NCBI GenBank assembly: GCA_902606585.1
Contig: CACLGX010000016.1
Location: 1 to 35,831, forward strand
Direction of reading: 5' to 3'
Length of the DNA: 35,831 bases
From: Paracoccaceae bacterium
GTDB lineage: Bacteria > Pseudomonadota > Alphaproteobacteria > Rhodobacterales > Rhodobacteraceae
Part shown: in pieces, positions 4,016-5,934 of the stretch
Layout of the letters: each line of letters opens with the position of its first letter
How positions within the stretch are numbered: the stretch's first letter is position 1
Position numbers and translations under genes: made by a program
The notes under the pieces: generated by a model
The model's database searches: none
The model's input: the letters and a program-made list of their open reading frames with translations, nothing else
What the model was told of the DNA's origin: nothing

Positions 4016-5301
4016 TGCAAACTTTTTTCGAAAAACAACAACTCGCAGATTTAGATTTTAAAAGGTCAAATGAAATTCTACGATCATGTGTGCACTGTGG
4101 GTTTTGTACTGCGACATGTCCGACTTATCAGGTTTTGGGAGATGAGCTTGATAGCCCAAGGGGAAGAATTTATTTAATAAAGGAAATGTTAGAGTCGGGA
4201 AGGATGCCAGATAAGAAGACCGTTACTCATATTGATAGATGTTTGTCTTGTCTGGCTTGTATGACTACTTGCCCCTCTGGTGTCCACTACATGCATCTTG
4301 TTGACCATGCTCGAGCCTACATTGAGGATAAATATAAAAGACCTTTTGATGAGAGATTTTTAAGATGGTCCTTGAGTAAAATTTTACCATATCCAACGAG
4401 GTTTCGTGTAGCGCTGATAATGGCAAAAATAGCCAAGCCATTTTCGTGGCTCATACCAGATCAACGATTAAAAGCGATGGTTGAAATGGTCCCAAAAAAA
4501 ATACCTGGAATCAGTTTAAACGATGATCCACAGACCTTCTTTCCTGATGTAAACAAAAAAATGCGAGTAGCTTTAATGACTGGCTGTGCGCAAAGAGCCT
4601 TGGATACAGACATAAATGACGCCACAATTAGAGTATTGAAACGCTTCGGTTGCGAAGTTGTCGTATCTGAAGGCCAGGGCTGCTGCGGATCGCTAAGCCA
4701 TCACATGGGAAAAACAAACGATGCACACTCTGCAGCGATTAGAAATATCGATGCTTGGTATTCAGAACTTAATAAAAATGGTTTGGATGCCATTGTTATT
4801 AATACCAGCGGTTGCGGGACTACTGTAAAGGACTATCACCACATGTTTAAGGGAACTGAGCATGAAGATAAGGCCAAGGCTATTGCGGGCTTGGCTAAGG
4901 ATATTTCTGAAGTTTTAGTTGGATTAGACCTTCCTGAGCAGGCAGAAAATCATATTAACATAGCTTATCATTCAGCCTGCTCTTTGCAGCACGGGCAACA
5001 AATAGGTAGCTATCCAAAGGATATGCTCAAAAAGTGTGGCTACAAAATTAGCGAACCAAAAGATTCTCATCTTTGCTGTGGCTCTGCCGGCACTTATAAT
5101 CTTTTACAACCAAAAATCTCAAAAGAGTTAAAAATTAGAAAAATTCAGAGCTTAGAGGCAAAAAATCCCGATATAATTGCAGCTGGAAATTTAGGCTGTA
5201 TGATGCAAATTTCCTCCTCGACAAATATTCCGGTAGTCCACACAGTCGAACTAATTGATTGGGCAACGGGAGGACCCAGACCCAATAAATTAAGTATTTA
5301 A
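4015..5301 (+). CDS. glcF: Glycolate oxidase iron-sulfur subunit GlcF
   Basis: GlcF carries electrons from the flavin subunits of glycolate oxidase. The 428-residue product has two ferredoxin-type 4Fe-4S motifs, with cysteines at residues 25, 28, 31, 35 (CVHCGFCTATCP) and 76, 79, 82, 86 (CLSCLACMTTCP). Two CCG domains follow (GCCGSLSHHMG and CCGSAGTYNLL), the heterodisulfide-reductase-like repeats of this family. It is the last gene of the glc unit; the start overlaps the glcE stop by one base. No permease or GlcC-type regulator lies next to it. I saw no clear terminator behind it; the next gene starts 178 bases downstream behind its own promoter. Confidence 0.95.
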   Translation: MQTFFEKQQLADLDFKRSNEILRSCVHCGFCTATCPTYQVLGDELDSPRGRIYLIKEMLESGRMPDKKTVTHIDRCLSCLACMTTCPSGVHYMHLVDHARAYIEDKYKRPFDERFLRWSLSKILPYPTRFRVALIMAKIAKPFSWLIPDQRLKAMVEMVPKKIPGISLNDDPQTFFPDVNKKMRVALMTGCAQRALDTDINDATIRVLKRFGCEVVVSEGQGCCGSLSHHMGKTNDAHSAAIRNIDAWYSELNKNGLDAIVINTSGCGTTVKDYHHMFKGTEHEDKAKAIAGLAKDISEVLVGLDLPEQAENHINIAYHSACSLQHGQQIGSYPKDMLKKCGYKISEPKDSHLCCGSAGTYNLLQPKISKELKIRKIQSLEAKNPDIIAAGNLGCMMQISSSTNIPVVHTVELIDWATGGPRPNKLSI

Positions 5302-5353
5302 AATTAGCTAAATTTTTCAGATCCAAAAATCATGTAGAAAAATTTTGTAGCTT

Positions 5354-5382
5354 CTTGAAATTGATTTTTTTATCCCCACATT
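5354..5382 (+). promoter_or_regulatory. Sigma-32 (RpoH) type heat-shock promoter of the ibpA-like gene
   Basis: CTTGAAA at 5354-5360 and CCCCACATT at 5374-5382 are separated by 13 bases. This matches the enterobacterial heat-shock consensus (CTTGAA, 13-17 bases, CCCCATnT) in all but one or two positions. It faces the small heat-shock gene, and a start point about seven bases past the -10 would fall near 5390, giving a leader of about 89 bases. The elements are seen directly; RpoH use is inferred from the consensus and from the gene's class. Confidence 0.75.
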
Positions 5383-5389
5383 GAAAGAT

Positions 5390-5481
5390 GAGATGCCACT
5401 TAAGGGTCTCTAAACACTATTTGCCTAAGCCGATTTACGGGTAGGTGCAAATTGGAATCGCTCATAGGAGGATATACAATG
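5390..5481 (+). promoter_or_regulatory. ROSE-like RNA thermometer in the ibpA-like leader
   Basis: The predicted leader folds by eye into three consecutive hairpins. The first pairs GAGA 5390-5393 with UCUC 5407-5410. The second pairs UUG-CCUA (5421-5427) and CCG (5430-5432) with CGG (5438-5440) and UAGG..CAA (5442-5450). The third pairs AUC 5457-5459 and CUC 5461-5463 with GAGGAU 5468-5473, leaving G5460 bulged and a four-base loop AUAG. The third stem buries the Shine-Dalgarno AGGAGG (5466-5471), seven bases before the ATG. UCGCU at 5458-5462 fits the U(U/C)GCU signature, whose bulged G opposite the Shine-Dalgarno defines ROSE elements of small heat-shock genes in proteobacteria. Melting on heating would free translation. 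No energy calculation was run. Confidence 0.82.
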
Positions 5482-5934
5482 CGACAATTTGATTTTTCAC
5501 CACTTTACAGAGCAACTGTAGGTTTTGACCAGATAGCAGATATGTTTGACCGTGTTCTTACTTCCGACACACAAACATCAAGCTACCCACCATATAATAT
5601 AGAGAAGATTGATGAAGATGCATATCGCATCTCTGTAGCCGTAGCCGGGTTTTCTGAGGCTGATCTAAATGTTGAGGTTAGAGAGAATTCCTTGTTTATT
5701 TTGGCGGGGAAATCGGACGAAAAACAAAAGAATTACTTATATAGAGGCATTGCGACCCGTAGTTTTGAGCGTCGTTTTCAGTTGGCCGATCACATGCATG
5801 TTAATGGGGCAAACCATTCTGATGGAATGCTTCACATAGACTTAAAAAGAGAAGTTCCCGAGGCTTTGAAGCCGAGAAAAGTACATATATCTAATGGATC
5901 TTCGAAGCAAACAATTGAGGCTCTAGCTAGCTAG
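5479..5934 (+). CDS. ibpA: Small heat-shock protein, IbpA type (Hsp20)
   Basis: This ATP-independent holdase binds unfolding proteins in the cytosol and hands them to DnaK/ClpB. The product is 151 residues. The N-terminus RQFDFSPLYRATVGFDQIADMF is close to the IbpA class (FDLSPLYRS.GFD). The alpha-crystallin domain runs from about residue 34 (NIEKIDEDAYRI) through VAGF and ADLNVEV to the C-terminal third, and ends with a V-x-I (KVHIS) variant of the IxI tail motif. The start is the ATG at 5479 because AGGAGG lies seven bases before it; an upstream in-frame TTG at 5452 falls inside the thermometer hairpin. It is a single gene with its own heat-shock promoter and converges on the DUF2233 gene. 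Confidence 0.93.
   Translation: MRQFDFSPLYRATVGFDQIADMFDRVLTSDTQTSSYPPYNIEKIDEDAYRISVAVAGFSEADLNVEVRENSLFILAGKSDEKQKNYLYRGIATRSFERRFQLADHMHVNGANHSDGMLHIDLKREVPEALKPRKVHISNGSSKQTIEALAS

Follow-up and report, generated by a model that had tools for sequence, protein, structure and literature searches.

ROSE-like RNA thermometers, as excerpts of the cited papers describe them, are defined by a U(U/C)GCU sequence paired with the Shine-Dalgarno (SD) sequence, with an opposing unpaired G, in the 3′-proximal hairpin of a leader that has two to four hairpins and a 5′-UTR of 60–120 bases or more (PMC3669281, PMC13104619). In alpha- and gammaproteobacteria they are common on small heat-shock genes (PMC3230580, PMC4166951), and such a gene downstream is usual but not strictly required, as ROSE-like motifs have also been described before ABC transporter genes (PMC11342760). 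Pseudomonas elements have two hairpins and the classical ones three to four (PMC3669281). In the same clade as the locus described here, two small heat-shock genes of the roseobacter Nautella sp. R11, ibpA and hspD, carry typical ROSE-like motifs, according to a passage of PMC3230580 that follows a 2005 survey.

Here we analyse a leader found in a window, by which we mean the whole stretch of 35,831 nucleotides of contig CACLGX010000016.1 (assembly GCA_902606585.1, Paracoccaceae bacterium). This leader, which follows a heat-shock promoter and precedes an HSP20 gene, is very probably a three-hairpin ROSE-type RNA thermometer. Since ROSE-like motifs have been published, including those of roseobacter ibpA, the element belongs to a known kind, as an earlier note made from the sequence had stated (PMC3230580). 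It resembles the rhizobial ROSE family of Rfam (RF00435) in its bulged-G hairpin I with CC/GG, its further hairpins, the HSP20 gene and a last hairpin in which YGCUC lies opposite GGAGGA, whereas it differs in having UCGCU where the consensus has UUGCU, in being AT-rich and in a hairpin II that fits the model poorly. With the short ibpA thermometers of Pseudomonas it shares U(U/C)GCU over the SD; transcription of those elements depends on sigma-32, as is predicted for the leader here, and unlike it they are gammaproteobacterial and have two hairpins instead of three (PMC3669281).

The IbpA-like gene, its promoter and its leader

The genome that holds the window is 1.8 Mb long and 73% complete, and the closest named loci, judged by protein, are those of Rhodobacteraceae AG-422-J09 (95% identity) and of the MAG MED-G52 (93%). 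Behind the leader, as first read, stands a small heat-shock gene of the kind that usually follows ROSE-like thermometers: positions 5479–5934 encode a 151-residue HSP20 protein (Pfam HSP20, 70.3 bits against a cut-off of 20.8). Because the NCBIfam IbpA equivalog NF008013 gives 158 bits, under its cut-off of 212, we term the gene IbpA-like. Upstream on the same strand lie glcDEF-like genes with a stop at 5301, and the 177 bases between this stop and the ATG at 5479 contain both the promoter and the hairpins. The features of the locus are as follows:

5354–5360, forward strand: −35 box CTTGAAA of a sigma-32-type promoter (sequence; conserved in the leaders)
5374–5381, forward strand: −10 box CCCCACAT (sequence; place conserved in the leaders)
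5390–5410, forward strand: hairpin I, 7 pairs, with bulged G5395 and CC/GG beside the loop (fold; covariation)
5423–5446, forward strand: hairpin II (fold)
5452–5479, forward strand: hairpin III, whose lower stem UUG/CAA extends to the first base of the ATG (fold)
5457–5473, forward strand: core of hairpin III (fold)
5457–5463, forward strand: anti-SD AUCGCUC with bulged G5460 (sequence; alignment)
5466–5471, forward strand: SD AGGAGG (sequence)
5479–5481, forward strand: ATG of the IbpA-like gene
5479–5934, forward strand: IbpA-like small heat-shock protein gene, 151 codons plus stop

The near-consensus heat-shock promoter that had been proposed is indeed present at 5354–5381, where CTTGAAA-N13-CCCCACAT has its boxes 13 bases apart. 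It was scored over 15 positions, with a pattern written after the leaders had been seen and C, T or A accepted at the sixth −10 position; on this scale the window scores 15/15, a value reached by none of 2000 dinucleotide shuffles of its leader. A score of at least 12 is found in 62 of the 68 ibpA leaders aligned below versus 20 of 680 shuffles, and the place of the promoter is conserved among them, since in each the best-scoring site has its −10 box ending 88–106 bases upstream of the ATG. With a shorter pattern the whole genome yields three exact matches; one, that of the window, was seen before a heat-shock gene, and the other two (L149, L151) are not obviously upstream of heat-shock genes. 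Two RpoH-like genes match in the same genome, one of them above the curated cut-off, and a simple scan for sigma-70 promoters and terminators gave nothing useful. From the sequence we infer that sigma-32 uses this promoter and that the transcript starts at about 5387–5390.

Three hairpins were found upstream of the ATG (5390–5410, 5423–5446 and, for the core of the last one, 5457–5473), and the leader features fall within the interval 5354–5481 in which they had been placed. With the predicted start they would occupy about 90 bases, a number of hairpins that fits the ROSE-like definition. In hairpin III, AUC(G)CUC pairs with GAGGAU over the SD (5457-5473, 5458-5472, 5459-5471, 5461-5470, 5462-5469 and 5463-5468) and one G, G5460, is left bulged; the masking of AGGAGG by a stem with a single bulged G inside UCGCU is thus confirmed pair by pair. 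UCGCU (5458–5462) is the window's version of the UYGCU motif, and it lies opposite the SD, with its unpaired G, in the 3′-proximal hairpin. One fold extends hairpin III further, pairing GCA with UGC (5447–5449 with 5480–5482).

Conservation, covariation and distribution

The window and 28 plus 39 loci from two homologue searches gave an alignment, made without structure, of 68 Rhodobacteraceae leaders (A1). Neither A1 nor the counts over 68 include L020, whose sequence is identical to that of L044, or 11 further loci that are not from Rhodobacteraceae or whose class is unclear (L070–L075, L077–L081). On this alignment the named 19-pair structure has 87.4% of its cells paired and a covariation of 0.284 versus 0.166 after shuffling, with none of 500 shuffles as high, and slid versions of the structure have fewer cells paired and less covariation. 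Counting the pairs with two-sided change does not single it out, since there are nine of them, one slide has ten and 19 of 500 shuffles reach nine; the further pair types are ordinary as well (125 of 500 shuffles). Hairpin I is 93.7% paired and covaries at 0.561 versus 0.278 when shuffled, again with no shuffle out of 500 as high, and 81 of its cells show two-sided change against 22.5 in shuffles. Five of its seven pairs have changed on both sides, a number that alone is equalled by 59 of 500 shuffles, and its bulged G and the adjoining C-G pair are invariant. Hairpin II lies in a gappy region of the alignment, where 69.5% of cells pair in the outer helix, all four pairs of which show two-sided change, and 71.6% in the inner helix.

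The core of hairpin III is 97.1% paired. YGCU, a short loop and GAGGA stand before the start codon in all 68 leaders, and complete pairing is for most core pairs partly built in, because the motif search demanded YGCU and GAGGA; the pairs that this search does not fully fix form in 68 (pair 1), 68 (pair 5) and 64 (pair 6) of the 68. In the closest relatives (L033–L036) the anti-SD is identical. None of the six core pairs changes on both sides within the ibpA leaders, as is expected when one side is the SD. The lower stem of the hairpin, considered as a conserved feature, proved weak, its pairs being formed in 49, 28 and 40 of the 68.

A second HSP20 gene of the window genome (L115, on contig C2 of G000) is preceded at 1411–1503 by a shorter, two-hairpin ROSE-like leader that resembles the two-hairpin ibpA thermometer of Pseudomonas (PMC3669281). 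The family consensus of such second-gene leaders is hairpin I followed by GUC-G-CUU over AAG-GAC, without hairpin II, and hairpin I of L115 itself is degenerate compared with its relatives and fails the hairpin I descriptor. An alignment of 30 second-gene leaders (A2) has 97.2% of its cells paired, and the model built from it (R2), for which L115 is a training row, gives 32.8 bits in the window genome. R2 has a match in 139 of 149 genomes sampled at order level, a few of the places listed being ibpA or dnaK leaders and the genes behind a minority of the matches having been inspected; one match (L221) was rejected as it has no long frame. Rfam returned a single ROSE_3 match, below threshold, across 20 second-gene loci. 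Set side by side, the two classes differ in the masking stem: at core pair 1, 60 of the 68 ibpA leaders have C-G and another 6 have U-G, against U-A in 26 of the 30 second-gene leaders, and at core pair 6, 56 of the 68 have A-U, against G-C in all 30. As judged from these sequences, compensation of the masking stem is present between leader classes at two core positions. The suggestion that the third stem is kept by compensating changes is therefore upheld between the classes but not within the ibpA leaders, and compensating changes as such occur both there and in hairpin I.

Why do curated searches miss this leader? At the gathering score no Rfam family is reached in the entire window. A permissive scan of 5200–5700 aligns RF00435 in full length (model 1–94 onto 5389–5487), but with 17.4 bits (E 3.8), far under the gathering score of 45, so the Rfam check proposed for the leader went against it. 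None of 20 homologous loci (15 from Rhodobacteraceae, 5 others) passes at the gathering score either; when 20 ibpA loci were scanned permissively, six had a match before the gene (three ROSE, three ROSE_2), all below the cut-off, and the window locus (L003) is outside the six. Among four control HSP20 loci taken from public records, those of Mesorhizobium (60.4 bits) and Bradyrhizobium (55.4 bits) pass Rfam, and those of S. meliloti and Paracoccus give no ROSE match at E ≤ 5. These scores indicate that the curated model reaches some rhizobia and no Rhodobacteraceae ibpA locus tested and, with the cut-off missed at all 20 homologous and two of the four control loci, that it is narrower than the biology. 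The same type of search found two matches to alphaproteobacterial small RNAs near HSP20 genes, both on the reverse strand and below threshold: ar14 at L012 1376–1483 (39.5 versus 58.8 bits) and ar35 at L121 1209–1348 (33.7 versus 45 bits).

A covariance model built from the 68 leaders of A1 (R1) performs differently on the controls, finding all four: Paracoccus, which is a member of Rhodobacterales, with 38.3 bits, Mesorhizobium with 33.8, S. meliloti with 33.3 and Bradyrhizobium with 16.2. It thus recovers the two rhizobial ROSE elements that are positive in Rfam (Mesorhizobium and Bradyrhizobium), and this two-way match between R1 and RF00435 is our main ground for calling the family ROSE-like. 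In the window genome R1 gives 59.3 bits at the window, itself a training row, versus 11.3 at the next-best site. In the order-level sample it has a match at E ≤ 0.01 in 147 of 149 genomes, eight of which gave rows of A1 (among them G000 and, by way of the identical L044, G010), with further overlap possible through named contigs; wherever the gene behind a match of this sample was inspected, it was a relative of IbpA (30 of 30). When 190 genomes were sampled at class level, 59 had a match, and among the 63 matches listed 60 lie before HSP20 genes (the window included), two before rpoH and one before an alcohol-dehydrogenase-like gene. The last (L197 148–251, E 1.4e-4) has no convincing hairpin I and is probably due to chance.

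Could the window leader itself be an unrelated sequence that resembles a ROSE element by chance? Its low Rfam score would fit this idea, and so would its folding energy, which is unexceptional (z = −1.05, with 33 of 200 shuffles folding at least as well) and which we rejected as proof of the element. Conservation across the family and covariation argue against such a coincidence, which we consider hardly credible. The ROSE-type reading of the earlier note stands, as the motif, the bulged G, the number of hairpins, the gene and the promoter are all present and conserved and R1 recovers Rfam-positive ROSE elements.

Temperature and the masking hairpin

During the heat-shock response, sigma-32 RNA polymerase would transcribe the leader from about 5387–5390, as sequence and conservation suggest. 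In the cold, hairpin III would pair AUC-CUC with GAG-GAU across the SD and keep the ribosome off, a pairing to which both the sequence and its conservation point. At heat-shock temperature, we propose, hairpin III melts because the lone bulged G keeps the stem weak, and IbpA would then be made, as in the ROSE elements that have been studied; by this analogy, thermal opening of the leader would be expected. Hairpin I probably acts as a stable 5′ stem that would guide folding or protect the transcript.

Calculations with ViennaRNA do not favour this mechanism once coding bases are included. For an RNA that ends at the AUG, the SD is modelled as shut in the cold (probability of being open 0.000 at 20°C) and hardly opens on warming (0.005 at 42°C). 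Extending the RNA by 17 coding bases raises the probability to 0.68 (20°C) and 0.70 (42°C), with values of 0.68–0.75 across this range, which makes the window leader the most open of the family (rank 68 of 68, with a family median of 0.000–0.006), and its 42/20°C opening ratio is 1.0 versus a family median of 14.7. Over 5390–5500, with a five-base SD, the probability goes from 0.38 (20°C) to 0.54 (42°C), and among single-base shuffles in which the stretch from the hairpin III loop to the AUG was kept, 288 of 300 at 20°C and 291 of 300 at 42°C have an SD no more open than that of the real leader. The proposed folding across temperatures thus gives a shut SD with little opening for the leader cut at its AUG and an open one once coding bases are present, and we dropped thermal opening in ViennaRNA as support. 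Nor is the instance unusually clean, as the earlier note had put it, for besides being the most open of the 68 the window ranks 42nd by E-value among the R1 matches of the order-level sample, an ordinary score for its family.

The openness of the leader in the model, once coding bases are present, comes from one structure:

5448–5491, forward strand: competing fold that frees the SD (5448–5454 with 5485–5491; 5458–5461 with 5481–5484)

This fold joins the spacer to codons 1–5, and codon 2 of the window, CGA, gives it four extra pairs; codon 2 is AGA in L034, L035, L036 and L053. In the model it equals the ROSE fold in energy at 20°C and is 1.0 kcal/mol better at 37°C. At 20°C the probability of an open SD in near relatives is 0.65 (L035), 0.48 (L036), 0.28 (L033) and 0.04 (L034), and L053 shows no lean toward an open SD. 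Taken at face value, the opening values, the competing fold and the pairs added by codon 2 would suit a thermometer that has decayed or been retuned in this low-GC lineage, in which the fold with the codons leaves the SD largely open at all temperatures and control is mainly at the promoter. We judge this unlikely. The anti-SD is the same in L033–L036, which argues for selection, and hairpin III folds while the codons are still to be transcribed. Moreover, ROSE elements contain non-standard pairs (PMC3669281, PMC4166951), which nearest-neighbour energies omit, and for this reason we give little weight to the adverse energy result and retain the ROSE-type thermometer.

Hairpin I and the leaders of rpoH and dnaK

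In E. coli the translation of sigma-32 is itself under heat control through an rpoH thermometer, which is what we propose, as a candidate, for rpoH leaders in other genomes; the E. coli element consists of the 5′-UTR and up to 229 coding bases, and the excerpt of the source mentions no ROSE hairpin (PMC4166951). The candidate ROSE-type leaders before rpoH are these:

L226 2356–2429, reverse strand: ROSE-type leader before rpoH (R1)
L227 1432–1503, forward strand: ROSE-type leader before rpoH (R1)
L228 2362–2433, reverse strand: ROSE-type leader before rpoH (R1)
L231 1404–1503, forward strand: ROSE-type leader before rpoH (R1)

R1 matches before rpoH in two small-genome alphaproteobacteria, G253 (E 4.2e-6) and G349 (E 2.6e-4), where the proteins behind the leaders pass the RpoH cut-off of 323.1 with 327.1 and 335.1 bits, respectively. 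All three genomes sampled from the order of G253 have such a leader (35.0, 25.7 and 23.4 bits), the other two RpoH proteins being 81% and 68% identical, and the leader of G349, the single genome sampled from its order, has 27.8 bits. By eye, the stems of hairpin I differ among these leaders and the bulged G stays. The rpoH leaders give no Rfam ROSE match at E ≤ 5, and in the excerpts of the literature on rpoH with ROSE or thermometers we recognised no description of such a leader. In the window genome's own rpoH leaders (L152, L153) no such element was seen by eye.

Two weak R2 matches (E about 0.0016) lie before dnaK in Rhodobacteraceae (L222, L223), the gene being identified by a family search on L223, and by eye both have AUC-G-CCU over AGG-GAU. 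More generally, inspection by eye of the dnaK leaders L222, L223 and L233 shows hairpin I, again with its bulged G, and at the SD a hairpin that resembles AUC-G-CC(U)/(A)GG-GAU. Perhaps a ROSE-type leader exists on dnaK too. Both the rpoH and the dnaK leaders are leads, not findings.

A plain descriptor of hairpin I fits 65 of 68 ibpA, 27 of 30 second-gene, two of four rpoH and six of eight dnaK leaders (two of the eight having been pre-chosen by R2), against a background of 114 of 2163 tiles of 150 bases. When dnaK loci were picked by protein alone (14 of 278 matched records), six fit the descriptor and eight do not; as L239 is a near-repeat of L235 and L243 lies 95 bases from the start, four fits are independent. 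L234, L235, L239 and L237 (Shinella, Sinorhizobium, Sphingomonas) carry the descriptor 28–51 bases before dnaK with no ROSE hairpin evident. A search for groES gave, in the best 50 of 1273 rows, mostly rhizobial megaplasmid copies. Heat-shock transcripts may carry hairpin I as a module of its own.

IbpA of E. coli acts on its own mRNA and on rpoH mRNA. A leader read by a protein, and not by heat alone, would make hairpin I a putative binding site, for instance of the small heat-shock protein itself, and hairpin III no more than the masked start. The wide occurrence of hairpin I speaks for such a reading: in shuffles the descriptor fits 154 of 3400 (ibpA) and 51 of 1500 (second gene), far from the frequencies in the real leaders, and some dnaK and rpoH genes also have the hairpin upstream. 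A stable 5′ stem may, however, be explanation enough, and in Pseudomonas the second hairpin alone thermoregulates (PMC3669281). We hold it quite improbable that the leader is read by a protein and not by heat alone; this reading and the thermometer could both be true, and the ROSE-type thermometer is the reading we keep.

Taken alone, the window instance is what would be expected. What is added is that Rfam cut-offs were missed at all Rhodobacteraceae ibpA loci tested and that R1 and R2 match in nearly all genomes of the order-level sample. R1 also turns up rpoH leaders, which, if true, would put a sensor on the master regulator. It is possible, though we lean somewhat against it, that hairpin I and the SD hairpin, both with a bulged G, form a leader module of the whole regulon, present on both small heat-shock genes, on rpoH in two small-genome alphaproteobacterial families and, in altered form (AUC-G-CCU / AGG-GAU), on dnaK in some Rhodobacteraceae. 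If this were true, one RNA design would sense heat at both ends of the heat-shock cascade, top and bottom, and hairpin I would stand as an independent module, possibly one to which a protein binds for feedback.
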